From Streptomyces aurantiacus (GTDB taxonomy: Bacteria; Actinomycetota; Actinomycetes; Streptomycetales; Streptomycetaceae), in NCBI RefSeq assembly GCF_027107535.1, contig NZ_CP114283.1:2728001-2792000 (forward strand): 64,000 nucleotides of DNA, read 5' to 3'. A model generated the notes under the pieces. It worked only from the letters and a program-made list of their open reading frames with translations. It was not told the DNA's origin and ran no database searches. A program made the translations under genes and the position numbers. Each line of letters starts with the position of its first letter. The stretch's first letter is position 1. Below, in pieces: positions 1 through 14,284 of this stretch.

Positions 1-1722
1 GCCGCCGGAGAAGAGCACGTACGTGCGCAGGCCGTGCTCCGAGGGCGCGCCCACTTCCAGCACACCGCCCGCGGGCACGGTCACCGGCTCCCACTGTCCG
101 ACGGCCGCGCCGTCGACCGTCACCGGAGCGGGAGCGCCCGTGACGCACACCGTCGTCGGGTGGGTGAACCTCAACGCCGGTCCCCGCAAGGTGCATTCGA
201 GCCCGGGTGCCCCCTCGTCGTTGCCGAGCGCACGGTTCCCGAGCCGGAACGAGAGGTCGTCCATCGGTCCGCTCGGCGGCACGCCCACCTGCCAGTGGCC
301 GGTCCGCCCCGGCCAGTCCTGGACCGTCGTCAGCGTCCCGCCCGACACGACCTCGATCCTCGGCGTCGGATCGCTCACCGCGGCGAGGGTGTCCGTGGAG
401 TGCGCGGCCGTCCGGAAGTCCGGGTCGGACAGCGCCGCCCGCACCAGACCGAGGTTCGTCTCGATGCCGTCGACCCTCGTGCCCGCCAGCGCCTCGTCCA
501 GCCGTGCGAGGGCCTGTGCCCGGTCGGCGCCGTGCGCGACGACCTTCGCGAGCATCGGGTCGTACGAGGTGGAGACCTCGGTGCCGGTCTCGACCCAGCC
601 GTCCACGCGGACGCCCGAAGGGAACTCGACCCGCGTCAACAGGCCCGCGCTGGGCCGGTGTTCACGGGAGGGGTCCTCGGCGTACACCCGCGCCTCCACG
701 GCATGACCGTGGGGCGCACCCGGATCGCGTACGACGCCCCGGTCACCGCGAGCCTGCCGCAGCATCCACGCGACGAGGTCGACCCCGTAGATCTCCTCGG
801 TGACCGGATGCTCCACCTGGAGTCGGGTGTTGACCTCCAGGAAGTACGCCTCCTCGCGGGCCGCGTCGTACACGAACTCGACGGTGCCGGCCGAGCGGTA
901 GCCGACGCTCGCGCACAAGTCCCGTGCGGAAGCGGCGAGTTGTTTGCGCACCCGGTCGGGCAGGCCGGGCGCCGGGGCCTCCTCGAGAACCTTCTGGTTG
1001 CGGCGCTGGAGCGAGCAGTCACGGTCGCCGAAGGTGACGACCCGGCCTTCGCCGTCGCCGAAGACCTGCACCTCCACATGGCGGGCGTGTTCGACGAGGC
1101 GCTCCAGGAAGACTCCGGCCGAGGAGAAGGAGGCCGCGGCGACGCGCTGCACCCGCTCCCAGGCGTCACGGAGGTCATCCGCCGAGTGACACGCGGACAT
1201 GCCGATGCCGCCCCCGCCGCCGGTCGCCTTGAGCATCACGGGGTAGCCGACGGCGGCGGCCCGCCACAGGGCCTCGTCGACATCCGCGAGCAGGCCCGTC
1301 CCCGGGGCCAGCGCCACCCCGGCCGACTCCGCCGCCGCCCGGGCGGTGTGCTTGGCCCCGAACAGGTCCAGCTGCTCCGGCGTCGGCCCCACGAAGACGA
1401 TCCCCGCCTCCTCGCAGCGCCGCGCGAACGCCGCGTCCTCGGAGAGGAAGCCGTAACCGGGGTGGATGGCGCCCGCGCCCGTGTCCCTGGCCGCCCCGAG
1501 GACGCGGTCCGCGTCGAGATACGACTCCTTGGCAGGCGCGGGACCCAGCCGTACGGCCTCGTCGGCGAGACGTACATGCGGTGCCGAACGGTCCGGGTCG
1601 GAGTACACGGCGACCGTGCGCAGGCCCAGTTCCCGTGCCGTACGGATGATCCGGACCGCTATCTCGCCCCGGTTGGCGACGAGGAGCGTGTCGAAGGCGC
1701 CTGCCGCTTCCTCGCCGCTCAT
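1..1722 (-). CDS. Urea/guanidine carboxylase (biotin-dependent), C-terminus cut by window edge
   Basis: Read on the minus strand, 574 codons are open from ATG at 1722 to the window edge. The first ~450 residues are a biotin carboxylase: ANRGEIAVRI near the N-terminus, HPGYGFLSE, the Gly-rich ATP loop KATGGGGGIGM, and EVNTRLQVEHPVTE. After it comes the start of an AHS2/KipA-type carboxyltransferase domain (TTVQDWPGRTG, GVPPSGPMD). This layout is that of urea carboxylase, not acetyl- or propionyl-CoA carboxylase. The ATG overlaps the stop of the upstream DUF1989 gene (ATGA), so the three genes form one operon. Enzymes next to DUF1989 pairs are now known to include guanidine carboxylases; the residue separating urea from guanidine use is in the carboxyltransferase part, and the biotin site is also outside this window. 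The family is certain; the substrate is an inference. Confidence 0.93.
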   Translation of the reverse strand, partial: MSGEEAAGAFDTLLVANRGEIAVRIIRTARELGLRTVAVYSDPDRSAPHVRLADEAVRLGPAPAKESYLDADRVLGAARDTGAGAIHPGYGFLSEDAAFARRCEEAGIVFVGPTPEQLDLFGAKHTARAAAESAGVALAPGTGLLADVDEALWRAAAVGYPVMLKATGGGGGIGMSACHSADDLRDAWERVQRVAAASFSSAGVFLERLVEHARHVEVQVFGDGEGRVVTFGDRDCSLQRRNQKVLEEAPAPGLPDRVRKQLAASARDLCASVGYRSAGTVEFVYDAAREEAYFLEVNTRLQVEHPVTEEIYGVDLVAWMLRQARGDRGVVRDPGAPHGHAVEARVYAEDPSREHRPSAGLLTRVEFPSGVRVDGWVETGTEVSTSYDPMLAKVVAHGADRAQALARLDEALAGTRVDGIETNLGLVRAALSDPDFRTAAHSTDTLAAVSDPTPRIEVVSGGTLTTVQDWPGRTGHWQVGVPPSGPMDDLSFRLGNRALGNDEGAPGLECTLRGPALRFTHPTTVCVTGAPAPVTVDGAAVGQWEPVTVPAGGVLEVGAPSEHGLRTYVLFSGG

Positions 1723-2333
1723 TCGGGAGCCCCGATCGTCATCTCGACCGCGGTCGGCTCGAAGCCGTTGCAGGGGTTGTTGATCTGGGGGCAGTTGGAG
1801 ACCAGTACGAGCACGTCGCGCTCGGCGCGCAGGGTGAGGGAGAGGCCCGGTGCCGAGATGCCGTCGACGATGCCCAGGGTGCCGTCCTTCTCGACCGGCA
1901 CGTTCATGTACCAGTTGATGTTGGAGACCAGGTCGCGCTTGCCGAGGCCGTAACGGGCGCCCTCCGCGAGGAAGTTGTCCACGCAGGCGTGCTGGGACCA
2001 GGTGTGGTGGCCGTACCGCAGCGAGTTCGACTCCTTGGAGCAGGCGCCGCCGACCGTGTCGTGCCGGCCGACGTCGTCCGCGACGACCGTCATCAGGGGC
2101 GTGTGTTCGTTCGACATGAGCACACTGCCCGTGGTCAGGAAGATGTTCCCCTGCGCCTGGATCGTGTCGGGCGCGCTGTAGCGCACGGCCGTGTCCCCGG
2201 CGTCGTACACGAGGAAGTCGACGGCCTGGTTGCCGTGCAGGTCGGTGACGGTGAGCGTGGCACCGGAGGGGACGACGGCCGACCAGGCGGCCCGGGCCGC
2301 GACGGTGGCCCTCAGGACGGTCTGCTCGCTCAT
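1719..2333 (-). CDS. DUF1989 protein (urea-carboxylase-associated; likely carboxyguanidine deiminase subunit)
   Basis: 204 residues, middle gene of the operon, overlapping both neighbours by 4 bases (ATGA). It belongs to DUF1989, formerly called urea-amidolyase-associated protein. It carries the family motif GRHDTVGGACS, whose His, Asp and Cys look like metal or catalytic ligands, and an N-terminal segment GNQAVDFLVYD shared with the upstream paralogue. Such proteins occur in pairs and have been shown in other bacteria to form carboxyguanidine deiminase (CgdAB), which converts carboxyguanidine to allophanate and ammonia. The ATG at 2333 was chosen because it sits exactly at the overlap; a longer reading frame to 2405 runs into the upstream gene. 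The family is sure; the deiminase role here is inferred from context. Confidence 0.88.
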   Translation of the reverse strand: MSEQTVLRATVAARAAWSAVVPSGATLTVTDLHGNQAVDFLVYDAGDTAVRYSAPDTIQAQGNIFLTTGSVLMSNEHTPLMTVVADDVGRHDTVGGACSKESNSLRYGHHTWSQHACVDNFLAEGARYGLGKRDLVSNINWYMNVPVEKDGTLGIVDGISAPGLSLTLRAERDVLVLVSNCPQINNPCNGFEPTAVEMTIGAPE

Positions 2334-3154
2334 GCGATCCCCCTCGCGGCAAGGAACTCGGCGGTGTTGAGGAAGGCGCGGTGGCCCTCGGGCGTGGCCT
2401 CCCACAGCGGATCGCCGGACCGGGTGGCCTCGCCGCGCCAGGCCAGCACCTCCAGCGGCGTGCTCGTGTAGGCGTCGCGCGGGTCTGCCGGATGCGGCAC
2501 GTTGGCCAGCAGCACGGTGACGTCCTGTTCGGCGCGCAGCGTCACGCTCGCCCCCGGACCCGCCGAACCGGTGAAGTCCACGGAACCGTCGTCGCGCACC
2601 TCGACCCCCTGGAAGAAGGAGAGCGACGGCGGAAGATCGCGCGGCGCCAGCCCGTTCTTGGCGGCCGCCAGCTTGAACAACTCACGGCCCGCGGGCGAGC
2701 CCGACTGCGGCGTCCCGTCCCCGTACCGCCGCGTGTTCCGTACGAGACCCGAGGTGCCGCACAGCGCGTCGTGCCGCCCGGAGGTGTCGGCGATCACCGA
2801 GGCGAGGACGCGGCCCTGGTCGGAGAGGAGCAGCCGGCCCTCGCCGAGGTAGGCGTTCCACTGGACCTTGACGGTGTCGGCCACGTTCAGGCGCTCCCAG
2901 GGCCGGTCGGCGACGAAGAGGAGCAGGTGGGCGCAGGCGTCGCCGCGCAGGTCCGTCAGCCGCAGCTCCGTGCCGCGGGCCAGCACCCGGTGGGTGTAGT
3001 TGCCGCCCGCCACCGTCTCCGCCCACACCAGGTGGCCCGCCTCGCAGGGCGGCGCGGGCCAGCTGCCCGCCGGCACGTGGGGCATGGCCTCGGCGCGGGC
3101 ACCCTGCTGGGCGCGGGCGTGCGCGCGGGCTCCGTGAGTGGTCGCTGTCGCCAT
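2330..3154 (-). CDS. DUF1989 protein, paralogue and first gene of the carboxylase operon
   Basis: 274 residues, starting at ATG 3154 behind a GGAGG ribosome site 8 bases away. It is a paralogue of the next gene and has the same core: LTDLRGDACAHLLLF, then SGRHDALCGTSG. It is about 70 residues longer than its partner, mainly through an N-terminal extension rich in Ala and His. The two DUF1989 proteins probably form a hetero-complex acting on the product of the carboxylase encoded downstream. The promoter region (3155-3332) is shared with a divergent TetR gene and holds a perfect inverted repeat at 3211-3232, 57 bases before this start. I saw no ykkC/guanidine-I riboswitch in the short leader, so control is probably by the TetR protein. 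Confidence 0.9.
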   Translation of the reverse strand: MATATTHGARAHARAQQGARAEAMPHVPAGSWPAPPCEAGHLVWAETVAGGNYTHRVLARGTELRLTDLRGDACAHLLLFVADRPWERLNVADTVKVQWNAYLGEGRLLLSDQGRVLASVIADTSGRHDALCGTSGLVRNTRRYGDGTPQSGSPAGRELFKLAAAKNGLAPRDLPPSLSFFQGVEVRDDGSVDFTGSAGPGASVTLRAEQDVTVLLANVPHPADPRDAYTSTPLEVLAWRGEATRSGDPLWEATPEGHRAFLNTAEFLAARGIA

Positions 3155-3210
3155 CGAGGGACCTCCGGCTCGGCAGTCGTGTCATGTCTTCGGTGAGGTG
3201 CTGGCCGTGC

Positions 3211-3236
3211 ATTTCTGTCGCTCGACAGAAATTAGG
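3211..3236. promoter_or_regulatory. Operator-like inverted repeat, copy 1 (TetR/DUF1989 divergent promoter)
   Basis: ATTTCTGTCG and CGACAGAAAT form a perfect 10-bp inverted repeat with a 2-base spacer (3211-3232), followed by TAGG. It lies between the divergent TetR gene (start 3333) and the DUF1989 operon (start 3154). A 26-base copy with 22 identities is found at 11576-11601, in front of a permease gene on the same strand and at nearly the same distance from its start. A TetR-family dimer site is the natural reading. Confidence 0.8.
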
Positions 3237-3332
3237 AGCCGGGAGGGTCACCGCCGTTGCCCGCGCGTTGCGGGCCGGTTACCGATCCCTCACCCGGACG
3301 GCCTGGTGAGGCGGTGTGCGAGGATCGAAAGC

Positions 3333-3956
3333 ATGGGTTCCAGTGGGCGCAGGGTGGGCAGGCCGCGCGCCGAGCAGCGCGCCGACAGCGGTCTCCCGCC
3401 GCGTGACGAACTGCTGGCCGCCGCCGCCGAGCTCTTCACCACGCGGGGGTACGCAGCGACGACCACCCGTGCCGTCGCCGAGCGGGCGGGGATGCGGCAG
3501 GCGTCCATGTACCACTACGTGTCCGGCAAGGAGGAGCTCCTCGCCGCGCTGCTGGAGTCCACCGTCACGCCCTCGCTGGCCTTCGCGCGGCAGCTCCTCG
3601 CCGAGGACACCGCCTCCGCCGAGGACAGGCTGTGGGAGCTGTGCCGCACGGACGTCGAGCTGCTCTGCGAGGGCTCGTACAACCTCGGCGGCCTCTACCT
3701 CCTGCCCGAGGTCCGCTCGGAGCGCTTCGCCGGCTTCCATGCCGTACGGGCCGAACTCAAGGACGCCTACCGGCAGTTGCTCGCCGCGACGGAGGCGGGC
3801 GGCGCGCTCGCCAAGAGTGACCTCGATCTGCGCACGGATCTGCTCTTCGGGCTCATCGAAGGAGTGATCCTCGTCCACCGCTCCGATCCGGAGCGGCCCG
3901 TCTCGGTCTTCGCCGGGGCCACCGCCGACGCGGCCCTCCGTATCGCCGGAATCTGA
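3333..3956 (+). CDS. TetR-family transcriptional regulator
   Basis: 207 residues from ATG 3333, preceded by GAGGA. The N-terminal helix-turn-helix is clear: LFTTRGYAATTTRAVAERAG followed by MYHYVSGKEELL, the usual TetR pattern at about residues 35-80. The C-terminal part is an all-helical ligand or dimer domain with no recognisable specificity. It is divergent from the DUF1989/carboxylase operon, and the space between them holds a perfect inverted repeat, so it likely represses that operon and possibly the permease gene at 9987-11525. The frame stays open upstream to 3138, but that part would cover the operator and lacks a ribosome site. Confidence 0.93.
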   Translation: MGSSGRRVGRPRAEQRADSGLPPRDELLAAAAELFTTRGYAATTTRAVAERAGMRQASMYHYVSGKEELLAALLESTVTPSLAFARQLLAEDTASAEDRLWELCRTDVELLCEGSYNLGGLYLLPEVRSERFAGFHAVRAELKDAYRQLLAATEAGGALAKSDLDLRTDLLFGLIEGVILVHRSDPERPVSVFAGATADAALRIAGI

Positions 3957-3985
3957 GGCGCGCGCCGGGCCGGAAGCGGCACGGA

Positions 3986-4021
3986 AGCCCCTTCTCACCC
4001 CTTCCGGTGAGGGGGTTTCGT
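3986..4021 (+). terminator. Intrinsic terminator-like hairpin after tetR
   Basis: CTCACC (3996-4001) pairs with GGTGAG (4008-4013), extended by outer CCCC/GGGG pairing, followed by TTTCG. It is 30 bases after the TetR stop. The remaining ~240 bases before cvnA hold no gene that I can support. Confidence 0.6.
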
Positions 4022-4263
4022 ACGCCTGTGCATCGTGACGCACCGTGTGCGAATGGAGGCGCAGCGTGTAAATGAGGCAGAGCGTACTCCAGTCGCGAGG
4101 GCGTTTTCAGGTGGTTGCTGAATATGACACAGCGATGATCCGGTCGGACTAAGCTCGCCCGCAGCGCACCGAGTTGAGGTGTATTCGTGCGCTTGTTCCC
4201 CAAAGTTCTGAAGATCCAGTTACCTCCCCCCGACCTCCAGTCGATTTGTCTCAGAGGGCATAC

Positions 4264-5880
4264 ATGGTGAGTGTTCAATCGCCTCCCGGTGGCCGTGAAG
4301 TTCCCTACGCGCGCGTGCTGTTGTTGCCGGCCATAGTGATGGCCGCGGCGACCGGTGCCGCCGTCGCCCTGGTGGCGCAGCCGGCCCGGACGGCCGTCGG
4401 CCTGTGCGGCGCCATCGCCACACTGCTCGTGATCGCGACGGCCGCGGAGGCGGTCCGCCGCGGCCGGGTCATCCGGGCGGCGCGCGCCGAGCTCACCCGC
4501 CGCACCGAAGTCATGGAGCGGCGCGTCAGCCTGCACGACGCCGAGATCGACCACCTCCGCGAGGACCTGCTCCCCGCCGTCCTCAAGCGGATGCGCGGCG
4601 GCAGGGCGCCCGAGGAGGCCGTCCGGCAGATCGTCGACAGCGACCCCGCCCAGCGCAACATCCCCCGCTCCCAGCGGGAGTTGCTGGTCGAACTGCTGCG
4701 GATCGTGGACCACGAGGAACTGCAGCGCGAGGCCGCTCAGCGCTCCTTCGTCAACATCGCCCGCCGGGTCCAGGCGATCGTCCACCAGCAGAACGTGGAA
4801 CTCCGCGAGATGGAGGAGGACCACGGGCGCAATCCCGAGGTCTTCGACGACCTGCTCCGCATCGACCACGGCACCGCGCTGATCGGCCGCCTCGCCGACT
4901 CCATCGCCGTGCTCGGCGGCGGCCGCCCGGGCCGCCAGTGGCCCGCGCCTGTCCCGCTGTACAGCGTGCTGCGCGGTGCCATGTCCCGGATCCTGGAGTA
5001 CCGGCGCATCGAGCTGCACTCCATCGCGAAGGTCAACGTCAACGGCATCCACGTCGAGCCCGTCATCCACGCGGCCGCCGAACTCCTCGACAACGCCACC
5101 CGCTACTCGCCGCCGCACACCAAGGTGCACGTCACCGCGGTCGAGGTGCAGACCGGCGTCGCCATCGAGATCGAGGACGCAGGCGTCAGCCTCAGCGAGG
5201 AGGCCCGCACCAGGGCCGAGCGCATGCTCGCGCAGGCGGCCGCCGGGCCCGACCTCAACCAGCTCGGCGAGGACCCGCGCCTCGGCCTCGCCGTCGTGGG
5301 CCGCCTCATGGACATGTACGACATGCAGGTCTCCCTGCGGCAGTCCGCCTACGGCGGCGTGCGTGCCGTCCTCGTCGTACCGCGCAAGCTGCTCACCACC
5401 GAGGAGCACGCTCCCGGTCTCGCCCACGGCATCGGCGCCGCCGCCGTGCCCAAGGTCGACTTCGACGGGGTCGAGGGCCCCAAGCGCGCGGAGAAGAAGC
5501 GCCGCCCCACCACCGGACCCCGGATCAACGTGCCGGAGGGCATGGAGGACGACGACGTCCCCGAGGTCACCGAGTGGACGGCCAACGGCCTGCCGCAGCG
5601 CCGCAGCAGGGTCAAGGTCCCGTACAGCCAGCGGGTCCTGGAGGCCCGCGCCGCCGCCGCGGAGGCGGAGGCCGCGCGCAAGGAGGGCCGCCCCGTCATC
5701 GACTGGACCCGGTCGTCGACGCAGGTGCCCAAGAAGAAGAAGGAAGAGAAGGAACCCGGGCTGTGGGTCGAAGCGTTCATGGCCGGCCTCAAGGGCGGAG
5801 ACGACGACCAGAAGCAGACGCCCGGAGAGACGAACAGTCCGGCCCGCACGGAGGCCGATGACGAGGGGGACCTCAAGTGA
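4264..5880 (+). CDS. cvnA: CvnA: membrane histidine kinase-like protein of a conservon
   Basis: 538 residues. Two hydrophobic segments lie near the N-terminus (about residues 17-35 and 43-58), then a helical region and a HATPase domain with the N-box AAELLDNATRYSPP at about residues 265-280. The C-terminal ~150 residues are charged and Lys/Glu-rich. CvnA proteins resemble sensor kinases; in conservons they are thought to act on a small GTPase module. The next genes are cvnB, cvnC and cvnD in the canonical order with 4- to 20-base overlaps. Order and neighbourhood match S. coelicolor cvn9, also described as rarABCDE, which influences aerial growth and antibiotic onset. The start could be ATG 4264 or GTG 4267; AGAGGG is just upstream. 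Confidence 0.93.
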   Translation: MVSVQSPPGGREVPYARVLLLPAIVMAAATGAAVALVAQPARTAVGLCGAIATLLVIATAAEAVRRGRVIRAARAELTRRTEVMERRVSLHDAEIDHLREDLLPAVLKRMRGGRAPEEAVRQIVDSDPAQRNIPRSQRELLVELLRIVDHEELQREAAQRSFVNIARRVQAIVHQQNVELREMEEDHGRNPEVFDDLLRIDHGTALIGRLADSIAVLGGGRPGRQWPAPVPLYSVLRGAMSRILEYRRIELHSIAKVNVNGIHVEPVIHAAAELLDNATRYSPPHTKVHVTAVEVQTGVAIEIEDAGVSLSEEARTRAERMLAQAAAGPDLNQLGEDPRLGLAVVGRLMDMYDMQVSLRQSAYGGVRAVLVVPRKLLTTEEHAPGLAHGIGAAAVPKVDFDGVEGPKRAEKKRRPTTGPRINVPEGMEDDDVPEVTEWTANGLPQRRSRVKVPYSQRVLEARAAAAEAEAARKEGRPVIDWTRSSTQVPKKKKEEKEPGLWVEAFMAGLKGGDDDQKQTPGETNSPARTEADDEGDLK

Positions 5881-6284
5881 TCCAGCAGCGCGCCAACTTC
5901 GACTGGATGCTCAAGGAGCTGTCCGACGGGGTCTACGGGACCCGGCAGGTCGTCGTGCTCTCCGCCGACGGCCTGCGCATCGCCCGTTACGGCGGCGACC
6001 CCGACGCCGCCGACCGCATCGCCGCGGCCTGCGCCGGACTGCAGAGCCTCGCCGGAGCCGTCGCCACGGAGATCCCCGACACCGACGGCAAGATGCGGAT
6101 GGTCATCATCGAGATGGAGGGCGGCTACTTCTACATGATGGCCGCCGGCCCCAACGCCTATCTCGCCGTGCTCGCCGAGGCGCATGTGGACGCCGGGCTC
6201 ATGAGCGCCCGTATGCGCGACCTCGTCGTCCGGATCGGTGCTCACCTCACGAGTCCGCCCCGGCGGAACGGGCAGACCGTATGA
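5877..6284 (+). CDS. cvnB: CvnB: roadblock/LC7 domain protein
   Basis: 135 residues from GTG 5877, overlapping the cvnA stop (GTGA). It is a single roadblock/LC7 domain: NFDWMLKELSDGVYGTRQVVV, then an Ala-rich helix and the strand KMRMVIIEMEGGYFYMMA. Roadblock proteins are small dimers that regulate GTPases (MglB-like), and in conservons CvnB is expected to act on CvnD. Cytoplasmic, with no membrane segment. Length and fold are typical. Confidence 0.94.
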   Translation: MIQQRANFDWMLKELSDGVYGTRQVVVLSADGLRIARYGGDPDAADRIAAACAGLQSLAGAVATEIPDTDGKMRMVIIEMEGGYFYMMAAGPNAYLAVLAEAHVDAGLMSARMRDLVVRIGAHLTSPPRRNGQTV

Positions 6285-6703
6285 CTCCTCCTCAACGACG
6301 ACGGCGCTTCCCCAAGGAGGCGCCGCCGAAGAAACCCGCACCCCCGCCGGAAGGGCAGGGCGGGCAGGGCCGGACCCGCGAGCCGGAGCGGCTGTACGTC
6401 GTCACCGGCCAGGTCGACGGCGGCGACCGCGCCGAACTCGACCTGGTGACCTTAATCGTGGCGTGCGCCGACGCACCGCCCTCCGCCCAGCCGGAGCAGT
6501 CGGCGCTGCTCCGGCTCTGCCAGGCCCCCATGTCCGTGGCCGAAGTCTCGGCCTATCTCAATCTGCCGTTCAGCGTGGTGACCGTACTGCTGACCGAGCT
6601 GCTGACGGCTGAACTGGTACAGGCGCGCGCCCCGATCGTCCGCTCGGAGCTGCCCGACCGTTCCCTCCTCGAAGCGGTGATGCATGGACTTCAAAAGCTC
6701 TGA
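6281..6703 (+). CDS. cvnC: CvnC: DUF742 protein, contains a TTA codon
   Basis: 140 residues from ATG 6281, which overlaps the cvnB stop (ATGA). The N-terminal ~45 residues are basic and Pro-rich; the rest is a DUF742 domain with a winged-helix look (LCQAPMSVAEVSAYLNLP, then VVTVLLTELLTAEL). Codon 58 (6452-6454) is TTA, a leucine codon that Streptomyces uses very rarely and that needs the bldA tRNA. I found no other TTA in the surrounding genes. Translation of the downstream, coupled part of the operon may thus depend on the developmental switch. Confidence 0.93.
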   Translation: MTPPQRRRRFPKEAPPKKPAPPPEGQGGQGRTREPERLYVVTGQVDGGDRAELDLVTLIVACADAPPSAQPEQSALLRLCQAPMSVAEVSAYLNLPFSVVTVLLTELLTAELVQARAPIVRSELPDRSLLEAVMHGLQKL

Positions 6704-7304
6704 CACCATCCCGGGACCTCGCAGCGAGGACCACCTCCCGCACACGGCGACGGCCGCGGTGAAGATCGTGATCGTGGGCGGTTTCGGGGTCGGCAAGACG
6801 ACGATGGTGGGATCCGTCAGCGAGATCAGGCCGCTGACCACCGAAGAGACCATGACACAGGCAGGCATCGGGGTCGACGACAACTACGGCTCCGAGACGA
6901 AGACGGCCACCACCGTCGCCATGGACTTCGGCCGCATCAGCATCACCGAACAACTGGTGCTGTACCTGTTCGGCACCCCCGGCCAGGAACGCTTCTGGTT
7001 CCTGTGGAACGGCCTCTTCGAGGGCGCCCTCGGCGCGGTCGTCCTGGTGGACACCCGCCGCCTGGAGGTCAGCTTCGACGTGATCGGACGCCTGGAGGAG
7101 CGCGGCGTGCCGTTCGTCGTCGCCGTCAACGACTTCCCGGACGGGCCCCGTTACCCCATGGAGGACCTGCGCGCGGCGCTCGACCTCTCCGAGGAGATCC
7201 CCATGGTGAAGTGCGACGCGCGCCGCCGGGCCTCCAGCCGGGACGTCCTGATGACGCTGATGCGCTTCCTGCACTCGATCGCCATGGCGTCGGCGTCCGC
7301 GTAG
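6684..7304 (+). CDS. cvnD: CvnD: small Ras-like GTPase
   Basis: 206 residues from ATG 6684, overlapping the end of cvnC by 20 bases. The P-loop GGFGVGKTT is at about residues 32-40, the switch II region LFGTPGQERFW at about residues 95-105, and VNDFPDG replaces the usual NKxD. It is an Arf/Rab-like ATP/GTP-binding protein of the conservon type, expected to be membrane-peripheral and controlled by CvnB. It is the last gene of the cvnABCD set; the P450 gene follows after about 180 bases that contain a hairpin repeat. Confidence 0.95.
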   Translation: MDFKSSDTIPGPRSEDHLPHTATAAVKIVIVGGFGVGKTTMVGSVSEIRPLTTEETMTQAGIGVDDNYGSETKTATTVAMDFGRISITEQLVLYLFGTPGQERFWFLWNGLFEGALGAVVLVDTRRLEVSFDVIGRLEERGVPFVVAVNDFPDGPRYPMEDLRAALDLSEEIPMVKCDARRRASSRDVLMTLMRFLHSIAMASASA

Positions 7305-7330
7305 GCGCTCCGCCGCAGGCGCGGTGACGA

Positions 7331-7384
7331 CCTGCGGGTCGGTGAGGGCTGGTCCGCAGCCCCCCGCGCCCCCTCGGGGCGCGG
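7331..7384 (-). repeat. Dispersed intergenic element, copy 1
   Basis: On the minus strand this reads as a GC hairpin (CCGCGCCCC, loop of 3, GGGGCGCGG at 7364-7384) followed by a tail with GACCAGCC and CCCGCAGG. Similar hairpin-plus-tail units occur at 11939-11992 and 50455-50504. Units of this kind are common between Streptomyces genes; here it sits between cvnD and the P450 and could act as a weak terminator. Confidence 0.6.
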
Positions 7385-7483
7385 CACCGCTCCCGGCGCC
7401 AGCCGCGCAAGCACCGCCCGGTGTCCGACGCACCGGACCAACTCCCAAGAAACCAGAACGACTTCAGTTTCGGAGCCACCACC

Positions 7484-8965
7484 GTGACGCCTGAATCCCA
7501 CTCCCTGACCGGCATGGACGACCTCATGTCCGGCCCGCCGCCGGGCTGCCCCGCCCACGGCACGGGTCCCGGCGGACTGCGCCGCCTGTACGGACCCGAG
7601 GCGCAGGACCTGGGGGCCCTGTACGAGAAGCTCCGGGCAGAACACGGCGCCGTCGCGCCCGTGCTGCTCCACAACGACGTGCCCTTCTGGATGGTCCTCG
7701 GGCACGGCGAGAACCTCCACATGGTCAGCAACCCCTCGGTCTACACTCGCGACAGCCGCATCTGGACCGCCCTCATGGACGGCACGGCGGGCGCCGACCA
7801 CCCGCTGATGCCCCACATCGCCTGGCAGCCCATCTGCTCCCACGCCGAGGGAGACGAACACCAGCGGCTGCGGGGCGCGGTCATGGGCGCCATGTCGACC
7901 ATCAACACCCGTGACCTGCGCCGCCACATCAACCACTGGACCCAGGAGCTGGTCAACCAGTTCTGCGAGCGGGGCACCGCCGACCTGGTCTCCCAGTTCG
8001 CCGAACACCTGCCCATGGCCGTGCTGTGCGAGATCCTCGGTATGCCCGAGGAGTACGACGACCGGATGGTGCAGACCACCCGCGACCTGCTCAAGGGCAC
8101 CGAGACCGCCATCGCCAGCAACGAGTACGTCATGAGCGTGCTGATGCGGCTCACCGTACGACGCCGGACCGAGCCGGCCAACGACTTCACCAGTCACCTC
8201 ATCAACCACCCCGCCGGGCTCACCGACGAGGAGGTCGCCCAGCACCTGCGCCTCGTCCTGCTCGCCGCGTACGAGGCCACGGCGAACCTCCTCGCCAACG
8301 TGCTGCGGGTCGTCCTCACGGACCCCGGCTTCCGTGCCCAGCTCAACGGCGGCCAGATGACGGTGCCCCAGGCGGTGGAGCAGTCCCTGTGGGACGAGCC
8401 GCCGTTCAGCTCCGTCCTCGGCTACTTCGCCAAGCAGGACACGGAGTTGGGCGGACAGCGCATCCGCAAGGGCGACGGGCTGCTCTTCGGGATCGCGCCG
8501 GGCAACGTCGACCCGCACGTCCGCCCGGACCTCTCGGCGAACATGAAGGGCAACCGCTCGCACCTCGCCTTCGGCGGCGGTCCGCACGAGTGCCCCGGCC
8601 AGGACATCGGCCGTGCCATCGCCGACACCGGTGTCGACGCGCTCCTCAAGCGGCTTCCCGACGTCCAGCTCGGCGTCGACGAGGACGATTTGAAGTGGAC
8701 CGCGTCCATCTCCTCACGTCATCTGGTGGAACTGCCGGTCGTGTTCGACCCGGCTTCGCCGAAGGACGTCATGGAGCGCCCCGGAGTGAGCCAGCTGCCC
8801 CGGCCGCGGCCGGACTGGGACCTCTCCGGGGACACCGCGGAGACCGCTCCGGCGCCGCGGCCCACGATCGACCAGCCGCTGGTCCCGGCTCCCGAACCGG
8901 TCGTCGAACCGGGCCACCGGCTCGGCGCCTGGCAGCGCTTCGTGCGCTGGTGGCGCGGCTACTGA
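7484..8965 (+). CDS. cvnE: Cytochrome P450, CYP157-like, EXXR motif replaced by EQSLW
   Basis: 493 residues from GTG 7484, chosen for GGAG 12 bases upstream; the frame is open to a GTG at 7421 that has no ribosome site. The heme loop FGGGPHECPGQ is intact with Cys370. The K-helix position holds EQSLW (residues 299-303) instead of the nearly universal EXXR. This is the hallmark reported for CYP157C1 of S. coelicolor (EQSLW at 297-301). The I-helix has AAYEATAN in place of the usual A/GGxDT. It follows the conservon cvnABCD as in rarE/cvnE arrangements. The substrate is unknown, and loss of EXXR leaves activity in doubt. The C-terminal ~60 residues are a Pro-rich tail that ends in RFVRWWRGY. 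Confidence 0.92.
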   Translation: MTPESHSLTGMDDLMSGPPPGCPAHGTGPGGLRRLYGPEAQDLGALYEKLRAEHGAVAPVLLHNDVPFWMVLGHGENLHMVSNPSVYTRDSRIWTALMDGTAGADHPLMPHIAWQPICSHAEGDEHQRLRGAVMGAMSTINTRDLRRHINHWTQELVNQFCERGTADLVSQFAEHLPMAVLCEILGMPEEYDDRMVQTTRDLLKGTETAIASNEYVMSVLMRLTVRRRTEPANDFTSHLINHPAGLTDEEVAQHLRLVLLAAYEATANLLANVLRVVLTDPGFRAQLNGGQMTVPQAVEQSLWDEPPFSSVLGYFAKQDTELGGQRIRKGDGLLFGIAPGNVDPHVRPDLSANMKGNRSHLAFGGGPHECPGQDIGRAIADTGVDALLKRLPDVQLGVDEDDLKWTASISSRHLVELPVVFDPASPKDVMERPGVSQLPRPRPDWDLSGDTAETAPAPRPTIDQPLVPAPEPVVEPGHRLGAWQRFVRWWRGY

Positions 8966-9915
8966 GCCTGCCCGCCGCCGGCCCAGCCGTCGTACGCGGA
9001 CCACGCTCCCAGCGTCCGCGCGCTGCGGAACGCATGCCTGCGTCCCGTGACCGGATCGGTGAACTCCAGTACCCGCGCCAGCAGTTGCAGCGGGCGCCGG
9101 AAGTCACCGGCCGGCACGGGGGCGGCGACCGCCGGGTACAGCGGGTCACCGAGGACCGGCACGCCCAACGCACTCATGTGCACCCGTAGTTGGTGCGTCT
9201 GCCCGGTGCGGGGGAGCAGCCGGTAGAGGGCCCGGCCGTCCCGGTGCTCCACCAGCTCGATCCGGCTCTCGGCGTTCGGCTCGCCCGGTACCTCCCGGGC
9301 CGCCAGGACTCCGCGCTCCTTCTCGATCCGGCTGCGGACGGTCCGGGGCAGGTCGACCTCTTCCGCGTACGGGGCGACCGCCGCGTACTCCTTGCGTACC
9401 AGCCGGTCGCGGAACAGTGACTGGTAGGCGCCGCGCTCCTCGGGCCGCACGGTGAACAGCACGAGACCGGCGGTGAGCCGGTCGAGCCGGTGCGCGGCTC
9501 CGAGTGCCGGGACGTCCAGCTCCCGTCGCAGCCGCGCCAGTGCCGTTTCGGCGACATGGCTGCCCCGGGGTGTCGTGGCGAGGAAGTGCGGCTTGTCGGC
9601 GACCACGATGTGCTCGTCGCGGTACACGACCTCCACGGGGAACGGCACCCGCTCCTCGTCGGGCAGTTCGCGGTGGAACCACACGAACATCCCCGGCACG
9701 AACGCCGTTTCAGGGGTCACCGGCCGTCCGTCCGCCGCCACGACCTGCCCCGTGGCGAGCATCTCGTCGATCACCGGGGCCTGCCCCGCGAGCCGCTCCA
9801 CCAGATGCTCCCGTACGGTGCTCCAGGCTCCCTCGGCGGGCAGCCGCAGCCGCACCGGATCCACCCCCTCACGCTGGGGCAGGGGAGAGGGCGGAATCCG
9901 GGGTTTGCGTCTCAC
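8959..9915 (-). CDS. RluA-family 23S rRNA/tRNA pseudouridine synthase
   Basis: 318 residues from GTG 9915. The family signature is present: AAHRLDRLTAGL with the catalytic Asp, preceded by a short strand EHIVVADKPHFLATTP, and later GQTHQLRVHMSALGVPVLGD. A divergent S4-like N-terminus (~75 residues) may bind RNA. It would convert a uridine in rRNA or tRNA to pseudouridine; the target cannot be told from sequence. Its 3' end overlaps the end of the convergent P450 gene by 7 bases. No strong ribosome site precedes the chosen start, so the first residues are uncertain. Confidence 0.9.
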   Translation of the reverse strand: MRRKPRIPPSPLPQREGVDPVRLRLPAEGAWSTVREHLVERLAGQAPVIDEMLATGQVVAADGRPVTPETAFVPGMFVWFHRELPDEERVPFPVEVVYRDEHIVVADKPHFLATTPRGSHVAETALARLRRELDVPALGAAHRLDRLTAGLVLFTVRPEERGAYQSLFRDRLVRKEYAAVAPYAEEVDLPRTVRSRIEKERGVLAAREVPGEPNAESRIELVEHRDGRALYRLLPRTGQTHQLRVHMSALGVPVLGDPLYPAVAAPVPAGDFRRPLQLLARVLEFTDPVTGRRHAFRSARTLGAWSAYDGWAGGGQAQ

Positions 9916-9986
9916 CTGGTCAAGCGTACGCAGGGGTCTCCCGGCGGGGCGGGCGGACGGTCCCGCGATCCGGCGTATCCGTGCGG

Positions 9987-11525
9987 TCAGGTGTGAGCGG
10001 GCGCTTGCGACGCCGCGCCCCGGGCCCGGTACGCCCGGTACGCGCCGCCCAGGAGCAGGGTCGCCCCGAGGAAGAGCACCGTGAACCACTGGAAGTACCA
10101 GTGTCCGCCCGCCGGGTCGTACACCTCCGCCCGGGGCCAGGCCAGGTTGACGGTCATGAAGAGGCCGTACAGCAGGGCGAGCGCGTTGACGGGGACGCCC
10201 CAGCGGCCGAGGGAGAAGAGCGGGCGGCCCGTCTCGTCGGTGCCCTCGACGGTGAAGCCGCCGCGCAGGCGCTGCCACAGGAGGGGCCCGGTGACCATGG
10301 CGTACGCGAGGTACAGCATCACGATGCAGGTGGTGCCGATGGCCAGGAAGGCTTCCGGCGAGGCGAAGTTGAGGAGCAGCAGGGCCGCCGCCGAGGCGCC
10401 GACGACGAGGGCCGGGGCGCTCGGCATGCCGGTGCGCGGGTTGACCTTCGCGAGCCGTCCGGAGAAGGGCAGTTGACCGTCGCGGGCCATGGAGAACAGC
10501 ATCCGGCAGGCGGACGTCTGGATCGCGAGGGTCGCCACCGCGATGGCGATCACCACGTCGGCCAGCAGTGCCCGGCCCACGCCGTCGCCGAGGCTGCTGG
10601 TGAGCACGTAGCTCAGTCCCTCGACGCCGAGCCGGCCGTCGGTGAGGCTGGGCGCGGCGAGCAGACCGCCGAGGATGATGAGACCGCCGAGCAGGCCCGC
10701 CGCGCCGAGCGCGGTGAGGATCGTGCGGGGCGCGGTGCGCCGGGGGTCGCGCGTCTCCTCGCTCATCTCGCCCGCGCTGTCGAAGCCGATCATCACGTAC
10801 GCCGCCGTGAACGAACCCACCAGCAGGGCCCCGACCAGGCCCGACTGGGCGCTCGTCCCGGTGTGGAAGGTGATGCCGGGCGAGCGTTCGGAGTGGGTGA
10901 ACAGGAGCACGATGATCAAGACCGCGCCGATGATCTCCGCGGTCACGCCGATGCGGTTGACCAGGGACATCACACGGTTGTCGAGGACGTTCACGAGGGT
11001 CGTCAGCACCAGCAGGAGTACGCCGAGGACCGCCGCGTTCGCCGCGCCGCTCGCCGACGTCGGTGCCGGATCGTCGCCGATCAGCTGGAAGCCGGACCAG
11101 ATCGCGGGCATGACCACCTGCAGCGCGAGCGCCGCCGCGGCGACCACCACGATCTGCCCGATCACCATGATCCAGCCGGCGAACCAGCCGAAGGTGAGGC
11201 TGGAGAGCCGGGAGGACCACTGGTAGATGGCGCCGGAGATCGGATAGCGCGCCGCCAGCTCCGCGAAGCACGCGGCGACGAGCAACTGGCCGACCAGCAC
11301 GGCCGGCCAGGCCCAGAAGAAGACGGGGCCGCCGAACGCGTACCCGAAGGCGAAGAACTGGAAGACGGTCGTCAGGACGGAGATGAAGGAGAAGCCGGCG
11401 GCGAACGAGGCGTACCTGCCGAGGCTGCGGTGCAGCTCCTGGCGGTAGCCGAACTCCGCGAGGGAACGGTCGCCGGACGGCTCCGGCGGATCGGGGCGTA
11501 CGTCGGGGGGAGCGGTGGTGGCCAC
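9987..11525 (-). CDS. APC-superfamily amino acid/amine permease, likely co-regulated with the carboxylase operon
   Basis: 512 residues from GTG 11525, with 12 predicted membrane helices. The first helix region has FSFISVLTTVFQFFAFGYAFGGP, interrupted as in APC transporters, followed by AARYPISGAIYQWSS, the conserved helix 2-3 loop. The frame is open to 11633, but that would place the operator-like repeat inside the gene, so GTG 11525 behind AAGGCAGGTG is preferred. The same 26-base palindrome that precedes the DUF1989 operon lies 51 bases upstream. This suggests that it imports the nitrogenous substrate (urea, guanidine or a related compound) of that operon; the substrate is inferred. Confidence 0.9.
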   Translation of the reverse strand: MATTAPPDVRPDPPEPSGDRSLAEFGYRQELHRSLGRYASFAAGFSFISVLTTVFQFFAFGYAFGGPVFFWAWPAVLVGQLLVAACFAELAARYPISGAIYQWSSRLSSLTFGWFAGWIMVIGQIVVVAAAALALQVVMPAIWSGFQLIGDDPAPTSASGAANAAVLGVLLLVLTTLVNVLDNRVMSLVNRIGVTAEIIGAVLIIVLLFTHSERSPGITFHTGTSAQSGLVGALLVGSFTAAYVMIGFDSAGEMSEETRDPRRTAPRTILTALGAAGLLGGLIILGGLLAAPSLTDGRLGVEGLSYVLTSSLGDGVGRALLADVVIAIAVATLAIQTSACRMLFSMARDGQLPFSGRLAKVNPRTGMPSAPALVVGASAAALLLLNFASPEAFLAIGTTCIVMLYLAYAMVTGPLLWQRLRGGFTVEGTDETGRPLFSLGRWGVPVNALALLYGLFMTVNLAWPRAEVYDPAGGHWYFQWFTVLFLGATLLLGGAYRAYRARGAASQAPAHT

Positions 11526-11575
11526 GACGGCACCTGCCTTCGGCGCAGGGAGCGGGATCCTGGAGGCGACAGCGC

Positions 11576-11601
11576 ATTCCTGTCGGGTGACAGAAATTAG
11601 G
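11576..11601. promoter_or_regulatory. Operator-like inverted repeat, copy 2 (permease promoter)
   Basis: ATTCCTGTCGGGTGACAGAAATTAGG differs from the copy at 3211-3236 at only four positions, three of them in the centre of the palindrome. Arms CTGTC and GACAG are kept, as is the flanking TTAGG. It lies 51 bases before the permease start, against 57 bases at copy 1, with the same orientation to the gene. Probable binding site of the TetR protein encoded at 3333-3956. Confidence 0.78.
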
Positions 11602-11647
11602 GAGAGCCTGTTTCGCCCGCGTGACGCGGCCATGTCCGCGCCGGGCC

Positions 11648-11693
11648 TAAGTCCTCACGCCCTTGCGCCCCAAGTCCTCACGCCCATGCGCCG
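11648..11693. repeat. Two tandem copies of a 23-base unit upstream of the permease
   Basis: AAGTCCTCACGCCC appears twice, at 11649 and 11672, each followed by A/TTGCGCC. The copies differ at one base over the 21-base core. They lie about 125-170 bases upstream of the permease start. Confidence 0.6.
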
Positions 11694-11938
11694 GGACCGG
11701 GCTCGCGATGCGTCGTGTATGGGGTGATGCGCTTTGAAGGGCTCGCTGTCGTGGGCGAGCTGCGCCGCGCCGTCGAGGCGGATACCAGTGCTCGGACTGG
11801 CCGGCTCGGGCGGGGCTCGGCGGCGCGGACCGTCCCGGCGGGGCCGCGGACCCGGCCGCGTGACATCAGGTCGCGGCGATGCTCGGGCCGCCGGGGTGCG
11901 CTCACCCGGGGGCCGCGCCGGGAGGCCCCTGCGGTCGG

Positions 11939-11992
11939 CCGCGCCCCTTCCGGGGCGCGGGGAACTGCGCGACCGGCCATGAGCACCCGCGG
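11939..11992 (+). repeat. Dispersed intergenic element, copy 2
   Basis: Hairpin CCGCGCCCC/GGGGCGCGG (11939-11960), then GGAACTGCGCGACCGGCC and CACCCGCGG. Same design as the units at 7331-7384 and 50455-50504. Confidence 0.65.
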
Positions 11993-12025
11993 ACGGCGCA
12001 CACCTCCCGGGGTGGGGCGCCAGGT

Positions 12026-12871
12026 CTAGGCGGCGGGCGGCGCAGCCTCCTGCTCCGCCTCGACCTGCGCGTTCCAGTCCCGCTTCGCGGCCTGCCACCC
12101 GTCCTCGTTGTGCCCGAGCCGCCAGTACCCGGAGATCGAGAGGTCCTCGCGCGGAATCTGACGCTCGACGCGGAGCAGCCTGCGCAGCTCCTTCACGAAC
12201 CCGGCCTCGCCGTGCACGAACGCGTGCACCCGGCCCGCCGGGAACTCCAGCGCCCGTACGGCCTCCACCAGCGCCTCGCCGACCGGCCGCGCACCGCGGT
12301 GCAGCCAGACGACCTCGACGTCCGAGTCGAACTTCTGCTCCTCCTCGGGCCCCGAGACCTCCACGAAGACACGCACCTGCGCGCCGTCGGGCATCGCCTC
12401 CAGCGTCGCCGCGATCGCGGGCAGCGCGCTCTCGTCACCGGCGAGCAGATGCCAGTCGGCCTCGGCATCGGGGGCGTACGCTCCGCCCGGCCCGAGGAAC
12501 CGCACGAGCTCGCCCGCCTGTACGCGGGTGGCCCAGGGCCCCGCGAGTCCCTCGTCGCCGTGGATCACGAAGTCGAGGGTCAGCTCGCGCAGCTCCGGGT
12601 CCCAGGCGCGCACGGTGTACGTCCGCGTCACGGGCCACTGCTCGCGCGGGAACTTCTCGCGGATCCGGGTCATGTCGAAAGGCTCCGGATACGTCACGCC
12701 CTCGGCCCCGAACAGCAGCTTGACGTAGTGGTCGGTGCTGGTGCCCGTCGTGAAATCGGCGAGACCCTCGCCTCCGACGACCACGCGCTGCATATGGGGG
12801 GTCAGCCGCTCCGTACGGACGACCCGCGCGGAATGGGGCCTGGGGGCCCTGCGTGCCGGACGTTCTGCCAT
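12026..12871 (-). CDS. Siderophore-interacting protein (FAD-dependent ferric-siderophore reductase)
   Basis: 281 residues from ATG 12871, behind AGGAGG. The FAD-binding motif RTYTVRAWDP is at about residues 83-92 and HLLAGDESALPAIAATLE at about 145-162, both typical of the SIP/ViuB family. The C-terminal NAD(P)H-binding part ends with SGYWRLGHNEDGW. These cytoplasmic flavoproteins reduce iron in imported siderophores and release it. Upstream, 12890-12908 fits a DmdR1/IdeR iron box, which implies repression when iron is plentiful. Length is normal for the family. Confidence 0.94.
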   Translation of the reverse strand: MAERPARRAPRPHSARVVRTERLTPHMQRVVVGGEGLADFTTGTSTDHYVKLLFGAEGVTYPEPFDMTRIREKFPREQWPVTRTYTVRAWDPELRELTLDFVIHGDEGLAGPWATRVQAGELVRFLGPGGAYAPDAEADWHLLAGDESALPAIAATLEAMPDGAQVRVFVEVSGPEEEQKFDSDVEVVWLHRGARPVGEALVEAVRALEFPAGRVHAFVHGEAGFVKELRRLLRVERQIPREDLSISGYWRLGHNEDGWQAAKRDWNAQVEAEQEAAPPAA

Positions 12872-12889
12872 AACGGCCTCCTGGCTAAG

Positions 12890-12908
12890 TTCGCTAAGGC
12901 TTACCTAA
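12890..12908. promoter_or_regulatory. Iron box (DmdR1/IdeR-type operator)
   Basis: The minus strand reads TTAGGTAAGCCTTAGCGAA, 14 of 19 matches to the consensus TTAGGTTAGGCTAACCTAA. It lies just upstream of the SIP ribosome site and probably overlaps the promoter. Confidence 0.75.
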
Positions 12909-13066
12909 GTTAGCATCTCCCCCCAGTTAACACCCCTGAGCGGCCGAGCCCAGGGCCTCCCTTGCGGTAACCCGAAAAGTCGCGGATCACTCGTGAACCG
13001 CCGGTTGACACCTCGGGCAGGAACACGCGAAGGCGCTGGGCGCTCCCTGGAGTCCCAGTGTCCCCC

Positions 13067-14029
13067 TCAGGACCCCAGAGTCGACAGCAGCCGCGCAAGT
13101 GATCCACCGAGACCCCAGCGTGCCGCGAGCGCGTCCACAGCCGCCGGATCGCGCGGCGCGCGGGGCAGTGCCGTCCGCACGTCCGGCAGCGGTACGTCAC
13201 CGGCCACCCGGACGACCTTCGGGGCGACGGAGACGTACGGCCGCGACTCGTCGAGGCGCTTGCGCTGCGACGGCGTGAGCTTCGACTTCGGGTCGTCCAC
13301 CGCCGCCATGATCCCGGCCAGGTCCCCGAACTCGGCCAGCAGCTTGGCGGCCGTCTTCTCACCGATGCCCGGCACCCCCGGCAGGCCGTCGCTCGGGTCG
13401 CCGCGCAGCAGCGCCAGATCCACGTAACCCGCGCCGTCGACGCCGTACTTCTCACGCAGCCACGTCTCGTCCGTGAGCTGCAGCATGCCGACACCCTTGA
13501 GGGGGTACAGCACGCGCACCTCCCGCTTGTCGTCGACCAGTTGGTACAGGTCGCGGTCGCCCGTGACGATGTCGACCGGGCCCGTGGCACGGCCGGCGAA
13601 CGTGCCGATCACGTCGTCCGCCTCGTACCCCTCGACGCCCACGCGCGCGATGCCCAGCGCGTCCAGGACCTCCTCGATGACCGGCACCTGCGGCGACAGG
13701 GTGTCCGGCACCTCCTCCTCGTCCGGCCCGACCTCGGTCTCCTCGGCCACACGATGCGCCTTGTACGAGGGAATCAGGTCGACCCGCCACTGCGGACGCC
13801 AGTCCGCGTCCATGCAGGCCACCAGATCGTCCGGCCGGTGGTCCTTCACGAGCCGGTCGATGAACTCGAGCAGGCCCCGCACGGCGTTCACCGGGGTGCC
13901 GTCCGGGGCCCGCACGGACTCCGGGACCCCGAAATAGGCCCGGAAGTACAGGGAGGCGGTGTCGAGGAGCATGGTTCGCCGGGGCTGCTGAGTCTGCTGC
14001 GTCACGCCCCGCATCATGCCGTACGCCAC
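13067..14029 (-). CDS. Stand-alone 5'-3' exonuclease (PolA N-terminal domain type)
   Basis: 320 residues. It matches the 5'-3' exonuclease/flap nuclease domain of DNA polymerase I: LLDTASLYFRAYFG near the N-terminus, RPDDLVACMDADWRPQWR, EADDVIGTFA with acidic metal ligands, DIVTGDRDLYQLVD, and the helix-3-turn motif GIGEKTAAKLLAEFG at about residues 215-230. There is no polymerase domain. It probably trims RNA primers or flaps. The start is uncertain: GTG 14029 (after GGTGA), ATG 14017 or GTG 14005 are in frame; all leave the nuclease domain whole. Confidence 0.92.
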   Translation of the reverse strand: MAYGMMRGVTQQTQQPRRTMLLDTASLYFRAYFGVPESVRAPDGTPVNAVRGLLEFIDRLVKDHRPDDLVACMDADWRPQWRVDLIPSYKAHRVAEETEVGPDEEEVPDTLSPQVPVIEEVLDALGIARVGVEGYEADDVIGTFAGRATGPVDIVTGDRDLYQLVDDKREVRVLYPLKGVGMLQLTDETWLREKYGVDGAGYVDLALLRGDPSDGLPGVPGIGEKTAAKLLAEFGDLAGIMAAVDDPKSKLTPSQRKRLDESRPYVSVAPKVVRVAGDVPLPDVRTALPRAPRDPAAVDALAARWGLGGSLARLLSTLGS

Positions 14030-14231
14030 CGACAGTCACCGTCGGGCGCGGACAGTGGGCGAAAGAGGCTTCCACCACCGGCCTGGAGTAGACGTCCTGT
14101 GAACTGGGACACGGTCGGGTTTGCGCCAGGGAGTCGGGGGCAGGGGCGGACCCGGAGCGAACCCCGTCCCGTTTTCAACCACACCTGACATGTGCGCGAA
14201 CCGGACGGGCGGGCGGAACCCGCGTCGCTCC

Positions 14232-14260
14232 ACGGCCCGCCGGCGGGGGAGGCGGGCCGT
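14232..14260 (+). promoter_or_regulatory. Leader hairpin upstream of the betaine transporter
   Basis: ACGGCCCGCC (14232-14241) and GGCGGGCCGT (14251-14260) form a perfect 10-bp stem with a 9-base loop, followed by CTTCGTTCG, 24 bases before the GTG of the ATPase gene. It could be an attenuator, or the terminator of an upstream transcript. No riboswitch class was recognised. Confidence 0.55.
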
Positions 14261-14284
14261 CTTCGTTCGACCTGAGAGGTACTT

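Follow-up and report, generated by a model that had tools for sequence, protein, structure and literature searches.

The window analysed here is a stretch of 64,000 nucleotides from Streptomyces aurantiacus (contig NZ_CP114283.1, positions 2,728,001 to 2,792,000). It contains two similar palindromes, one in front of a carboxylase operon and beside a divergent gene of the TetR family, the other in front of a distant APC permease gene. An earlier note on this DNA had joined them into a two-locus regulon of the TetR gene, with the permease feeding a urea/guanidine pathway. The features concerned are as follows.

1..1722, minus strand: N-terminal part of a biotin-dependent urea/guanidine carboxylase (TIGR02712, 1827 bits over the whole protein).
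1719..2333, minus strand: UAAP2, DUF1989, predicted carboxyguanidine deiminase subunit (TIGR03424, 325 bits, over the cut-off).
2330..3154, minus strand: UAAP1, DUF1989, predicted carboxyguanidine deiminase subunit (TIGR03425, 310 bits, over the cut-off; PF09347).
3211..3232, no strand assigned: operator 1, predicted for AmtR, ATTTCTGTCG-CT-CGACAGAAAT, in front of the carboxylase operon.
3229..3234, minus strand: -10-like TAATTT over operator 1, putative promoter element (conserved columns in 73 aligned sites).
3245..3293, minus strand: putative GlnR-box array upstream of operator 1, GTGAG-n6-GTAAC-n6-GCAAC-n6-GCAAC-n6-GACCC (strict core 3267-3282).
3333..3956, plus strand: amtR, TetR-family regulator of 207 amino acids (best PDB match 5e57, E 2e-37; TetR_N domain).
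9987..11525, minus strand: APC permease, predicted importer of the pathway substrate (TIGR03428, 663 bits).
11576..11597, no strand assigned: operator 2, predicted for AmtR, ATTCCTGTCG-GG-TGACAGAAAT, in front of the APC permease.
11594..11599, minus strand: -10-like TAATTT over operator 2, putative promoter element (conserved columns in 68 aligned sites).
11610..11658, minus strand: putative GlnR-box array upstream of operator 2, ending in GTCAC-n6-GAAAC (strict core 11610-11625).

The carboxylase is 1202 amino acids in full and extends beyond the window, where an allophanate hydrolase gene (TIGR02713, 700 bits) comes next. We take the DUF1989 pair to be carboxyguanidine-processing proteins.

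When recomputed, the 22 of 26 identical bases between 3211-3236 and 11576-11601, the distances of 57 bases to the minus-strand start at 3154 (ATG) and of 51 bases to that at 11525 (GTG), and the common strand orientation all came out as the earlier note had given them; the two sites also have a common TTAGG flank on the same side. The core of operator 1 consists of perfect arms of 10 base pairs (bp) around CT, with 20 of 22 positions self-complementary, and that of operator 2 is an imperfect palindrome with 16 of 22. Allowing up to three mismatches, the pattern ATTTCTGTCGNNCGACAGAAAT occurs at two places in the whole 9.9-Mb genome (two contigs), both being the window operators, and the reversed pattern used as control has no match there. 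A shorter core with up to two mismatches is found at six genomic places, four of which are two-mismatch sites elsewhere. The palindrome pair is confirmed as real and far above chance. Its length, given before as 26 bases, did not hold up: the essential unit is the 22-bp operator, and the extra TTAGG reads CCTAA on the gene strand and belongs, in the aligned loci, to the conserved -10-like TAATTT that overlaps the operator.

We examined conservation in 295 genomes of the genus, the source genome included. The pattern ATTTCTGTCGNNCGACAGAAAT was present in 86 of them and occurred at two or more places in 73 of those 86, and the reversed-pattern control matched three of the 295, at one place each. 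Close relatives of the TetR gene were found in 99 genomes and distant ones in 10 more. A close copy of UAAP1 (at least 75% identity) is present in 76 genomes, and all 76 also contain the motif and the TetR gene. Around the TetR gene we then had 101 loci, that is, 100 and the window. The UAAP1 start is in view at 73 of them, with an upstream site of at most three mismatches at every one; the permease start is in view at 69, with a site at 67 (up to three mismatches) or 68 (up to four). At the 68 loci with both genes in view, both sites are present without exception, in one case only when the fourth mismatch is allowed. For the genome G196, outside these loci, the site before UAAP1 was read from coordinates. 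The scan of Streptomyces relatives had been set beforehand as a test, and it found the second site conserved at 68 of 69 permease starts. Moreover, among 80 named loci, partly shared with the 295-genome set, a site stands at 76 of the 76 UAAP1 starts seen and at 55 of 59 permease starts, the four siteless ones lying at or past the end of the stretch examined. Streptomyces scabiei 87.22 is a named example, its sites having 0 and 1 mismatches. Relatives of AmtR (protein matches, E up to 1e-40) were found at family rank in 65 of 200 genomes and in 5 of 17 genera.

The gene layout was seen as it had been described, with a divergent TetR gene and a permease beyond a conservon and an RNA-modification gene, and a P450 gene also lies between. 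Altogether, the TetR gene, four conservon-type genes, the P450 gene and a gene for an RluA-type pseudouridine synthase separate the two sites; the conservon-type set (histidine-kinase-like, Roadblock, DUF742 and GTPase) and the P450 gene occupy 4177-8965, between amtR and the permease. The cvnA gene is missing between the two target genes in 17 of the 68 loci, and in these the TetR and permease starts are 2.2 to 4.0 kb apart; in the 51 loci with cvnA this distance is 8.0 to 12.8 kb. Those 17 loci retain the two sites with their genes, so the regulon unit does not include the genes of the conservon, the P450 and the pseudouridine synthase. In the genome G218 (locus L157) both sites are kept, with the genes 8.4 kb apart. 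A single TetR relative was found in that genome, at a distance of about 1.14 Mb, as could be expected if the regulator is diffusible. The coordinates noted for this far-away amtR case are G218:C1:6817976-6818590.

The six best PDB matches of the TetR protein are 5e57, 5dxz, 5dy1, 5dy0, 5mqq and 6gy3 (E 2e-37 to 4e-30), and the next match follows at E 1e-12. Among them, 5e57 ('Transcription regulator AmtR'), 5mqq and 6gy3 are listed as AmtR, and 5dxz, 5dy0 and 5dy1 only as TetR family; 5dxz, 5dy0, 5dy1, 5mqq and 6gy3 are presumably all AmtR of Corynebacterium glutamicum. Judged by these matches, the TetR protein of the window is AmtR. A 22-bp AmtR consensus, TAtCTGTCa-n2-cGACAGATAT, is credited to Chen et al. 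2013 for AmtRsav of S. avermitilis (PMC8864220), and by eye the window cores ATTTCTGTCGCTCGACAGAAAT and ATTCCTGTCGGGTGACAGAAAT agree with it. In S. avermitilis, the putatively AmtR-regulated genes include the permease sav6709, which lies elsewhere, the carboxylase sav6698 and the amidase sav6697, with the divergent AmtR gene sav6701 (PMC4222082). Thus AmtRsav has the same gene set as the window, a divergent amtR, a permease elsewhere and an agreeing operator consensus. S. avermitilis is a different species and is not among the loci seen by name. Chen et al. 2013 are said to have found that AmtRsav directly controls sav_6697-6700 and sav_6709 through sites in both upstream regions; if so, this would equal the arrangement in the window. 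The regulon prediction is therefore supported but not new in kind, because a putative AmtR regulon of S. avermitilis had already been listed and the published AmtR consensus matches.

Ten genomes of the genus have a diverged operon (UAAP1 of 56-60% identity), and every one of them has a diverged AmtR-like gene, with 39-42% identity in nine and 54% over a part in one. The motif ATTTCTGTCGNNCGACAGAAAT occurs in none of the ten, and in nine a related palindrome, ATACCTRTC-n4-GAYAGGTAW, stands before the permease. The gene order in these sets is permease, UAAP1, UAAP2 and carboxylase on one strand, with a single site before the permease, so that the contiguous gene set has one site and the split set two. 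The loci L147-L155 were recorded as a second, diverged gene set with diverged AmtR and the variant operator ATACCTGTC-n4-GACAGGTAT. The two-locus regulon of the divergent TetR gene, as predicted from the genomic sequence, is strongly supported by the co-occurrence in 76 of 76 genomes, the paired sites in 68 of 68 loci and this joint change of regulator and operator. Alternatively, the palindromes might be read by some regulator other than the neighbouring AmtR, as the sites of G218 far from its AmtR gene would suggest, together with 21 genomes that keep an AmtR-like gene without the operon or an adjacent motif. Against this, AmtR accompanies the operon in all 76 genomes, the diverged AmtR is paired with a diverged operator and the published AmtR consensus agrees, and we regard such a regulator as very improbable.

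Next to AmtR, GlnR probably acts at both promoters. In the operator-aligned loci, conserved pentamers at a 6-base spacing lie directly upstream of both operators. At site 1 (n = 73) these are GTGAG (67), GTAAC (69), GCAAC (58), GCAAT or GCAAC (56) and GACCC (41); at site 2 (n = 68) they are GTGAG (59), GGCCC (37, not GlnR-like), GACAC or GACAT (59), GTGAC or GTCAC (45) and GAAAC (61). The second pentamer of the operator 2 array in the window is likewise GGCCC, which does not fit the GlnR consensus. The published consensus is gTnAc-n6-GaAAc-n6-GtnAC-n6-GAAAc for S. coelicolor and t/gTAAC-n6-Gc/aAAC for Mycobacterium smegmatis (PMC10704036). Both promoters have boxes of the gTnAc-n6-GaAAc type in an 11-bp register upstream of the -10, as expected of a GlnR-controlled promoter. 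The strict form, defined as GTNAC-n6-GMAAC, occurs upstream in 60 of 73 loci at site 1 and in 45 of 68 at site 2, with none in the reverse-strand and downstream controls of the same loci, and a looser form occurs in 73 of 73 and 64 of 68, respectively. The 64-kb window contains two strict forms, both at the operators, where 0.44 are expected. The composite of a GlnR box and TAATTTCTGTC has two occurrences in the genome, both here, and none in the control. Dual control by AmtR and GlnR is not new, as competitive binding of the two in M. smegmatis appears in a reference title (PMC5137332). We found no report of GlnR boxes or of dual AmtR/GlnR control at these Streptomyces promoters in the literature searched, and the predicted GlnR boxes directly upstream of both operators are an addition of the present analysis.

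Site 2 might also be a passive relic, if the permease promoter had inherited an operator copy when an operon was split and had since lost AmtR control. Such a split with promoter copying is plausible given that the diverged operons have the permease first with a single site, and site 2 is the less symmetrical of the two. However, the columns of site 2 are highly informative in the 68 loci and those of its downstream flank almost not at all, the sites having been picked by similarity with 1 of 69 omitted. Site 2 further retains a variant half (CCTGTC) and a GlnR-like array of its own, and in G218 it is kept although amtR is distant. A relic is therefore very unlikely, and AmtR control of both promoters is preferred.

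As for the substrate, Asp715 of the carboxylase aligns opposite Asn1330 of the K. lactis urea amidolyase (5i8i). We take residue 1330 to be the specificity position; a text search for this number found nothing. The residue could be scored in 66 of the 101 loci, namely those with a match covering it, and is Asp in all 66; it is also Asp in eight of eight operons from outside the genus with a UAAP1 of 53-57% identity. In five more distant operons it is Ile or Met, and one of these, at L251, is led by a guanidine-I riboswitch. According to a review, Asp marks guanidine carboxylases and Asn urea carboxylases (PMC12186494). Elsewhere in the genome, at G000:C2:1067718-1067778, a guanidine-III riboswitch (49 bits, E 1e-8) directly precedes a gene of the small multidrug resistance (SMR) type (PF00893), which is likely a guanidine exporter. 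A riboswitch-controlled operon was considered and rejected, since no Rfam match at the gathering score was found in the operon leader or elsewhere in window 1-16000 and no guanidine-I riboswitch in the whole genome.

The pathway could instead serve urea as annotated, with the permease importing urea or an amino acid, in keeping with the family names TIGR02712 and TIGR03428 and with an AmtR literature that speaks of urea metabolism. This is unlikely, because Asp replaces Asn at the presumed specificity residue in every scored locus and the guanidine-III riboswitch and SMR gene lie within the same genome. The carboxylase is accordingly predicted to be a guanidine carboxylase, and guanidine appears the likelier substrate. 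Of the idea that the permease feeds the urea/guanidine pathway, the link to the pathway held: the best family by far is TIGR03428 ('permease, urea carboxylase system'), although 663 bits is below its cut-off of 740.45; as to the substrate, guanidine seems likelier than urea. The earlier note had missed this preference, as well as the identity of the TetR protein with AmtR, its published S. avermitilis counterpart and the GlnR boxes at both sites.

Comparable systems differ from that of the window in several respects. In M. smegmatis, the genes msmeg_2184-2189 likewise include the permease and carboxylase genes and are repressed by AmtR and controlled by GlnR; the permease promoter was bound by AmtR, whose deletion raised the permease, carboxylase and amidase transcripts (those of the latter two given as 'data not shown' in the source), and GlnR is the master regulator (PMC4222082), with a chromatin immunoprecipitation peak at MSMEG_2184 (PMC3662644). 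The amtR gene of that species is unlinked and its targets have adjoining numbers; the window, in contrast, has a pair of sites at each of two promoters. The AmtR of C. glutamicum is also of the TetR type and has a palindromic box, CTAT-N6-ATAG (PMC8864220), but it acts as master nitrogen regulator on at least 35 genes (PMC8864220, PMC2723105), while the window genome has two sites only; derepression by adenylylated GlnK has been proposed for it (PMC8864220, PMC2723105). Riboswitch-controlled guanidine carboxylase operons resemble the window in having a carboxylase, a carboxyguanidine-processing pair, an allophanate hydrolase and a transporter (PMC12508155, PMC12186494). The window differs from them by a TetR protein and GlnR boxes in place of any Rfam match in 1-16000, and by an APC permease instead of an ABC importer.

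Taken as a whole, an AmtR regulon with two predicted operators, GlnR co-control and a guanidine pathway is very probably the best explanation. AmtR very probably binds both 22-bp operators, each over its -10-like element, and would repress the UAAP1-UAAP2-carboxylase-allophanate hydrolase operon and also the permease, as a second transcription unit. The pentamer arrays that adjoin the two operators on their upstream side are very probably bound by the global nitrogen activator GlnR. The likely logic is that GlnR activates and AmtR blocks the -10 region, so that nitrogen shortage (GlnR on) combined with release of AmtR would switch on both units at once. Guanidine import and breakdown via carboxyguanidine and allophanate most likely make up the pathway itself.

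Several observations weigh against this explanation. Operator 2 is an imperfect palindrome. In G233, one permease start has no adjacent site; the second site of this genome is found close to amtR, some 2 kb upstream of the permease. The tenth diverged operon (L156, genome G271), which was excluded from the list of variant sites, has just weak candidates of 6 and 8 mismatches before UAAP1. At site 1, the looser GlnR form also turns up in 3 of 73 downstream controls. Two strict cores are reached by 8 of 100 shuffles of the window and are thus not rare alone, so that the weight rests on position and conservation. At the distant locus L251, a DUF1989/carboxylase operon is preceded by a guanidine-I riboswitch (9047-9155), and the diagnostic residue of its carboxylase is Met; the Asp rule is therefore not universal. 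The binding of M. smegmatis AmtR was unaffected by urea or amino acids (PMC4222082). Lastly, 21 examined genomes have an AmtR-like TetR gene (65-75% identity) with neither the carboxylase operon nor the motif in the stretch, which means that the AmtR protein can have other roles.

These operon-less loci are L044-L053, L055-L059, L061, L063-L066 and L125, and a pseudouridine synthase gene adjoins in 17 of the 21. Among the 209 genomes without UAAP1, ten have motif matches: good sites in G139 and G201, that of G201 being at a contig end, and eight lone three-mismatch matches. In G139 (L029), a permease of 86% identity has a site and no UAAP1 was found in the genome, either from a lost operon or from an assembly gap. 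That the eight lone matches are due to chance was doubted, as six fall in the 21 operon-less AmtR-like genomes versus two in 185 others. Those of G046, G054 and G209 represent a single orthologous intergenic place, with sequences 86-90% alike, so the eight are not independent events. This place, shared by the operon-less genomes of L139, L140 and L141, contains TTCTGTCGGSTGACCGAA, which may be a variant site or a chance inheritance. A variant pattern derived from the three genomes matched 16 of the 21 operon-less AmtR-like genomes versus 4 of 18 with neither gene nor operon; it also matched three of four operon genomes, the matches were mostly of two mismatches at scattered places, and the control matched 6 of 43. 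A second operator for the operon-less AmtR-like proteins should be taken as a lead only. As a mark of the operon class, Asn117 of AmtR was only partly borne out: the residue is Asn in 75 of 75 with the operon, and without it 14 have Asn, 5 Asp and 2 His. Five of the 101 loci are not in this count (a second copy, two loci from the 40% class and two broken by contig ends), and G218 and G233 were assigned to the operon class by hand.

A further question is what releases AmtR. It is possible, though rather unlikely, that AmtR serves as a guanidine sensor in those actinomycetes that have GlnR, being released by guanidine, carboxyguanidine or allophanate. The proposal comes from the resemblance of its targets to a complete pathway of guanidine import and use, from the failure of urea and amino acids as effectors in M. 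smegmatis, and from a 2025 review that, in the excerpts available, knows of no guanidine-binding regulatory protein (PMC12186494). The word guanidine is absent from the text of the M. smegmatis AmtR paper (PMC4222082). Outside the genus, we had 13 operons: eight are of this type without a guanidine riboswitch, seven of them with an AmtR-like gene in the stretch; one is riboswitch-led without an AmtR-like gene nearby; and the other four have neither. Over these 13 loci, mutual exclusion of riboswitch and AmtR is a weak pattern. If the proposal is true, AmtR would be the protein counterpart of the guanidine riboswitches. The palindrome pair first guessed from raw sequence corresponds to a conserved two-promoter regulon of a known repressor, as far as the comparisons above indicate, and it would connect the work on AmtR and GlnR, framed around urea, with guanidine assimilation.

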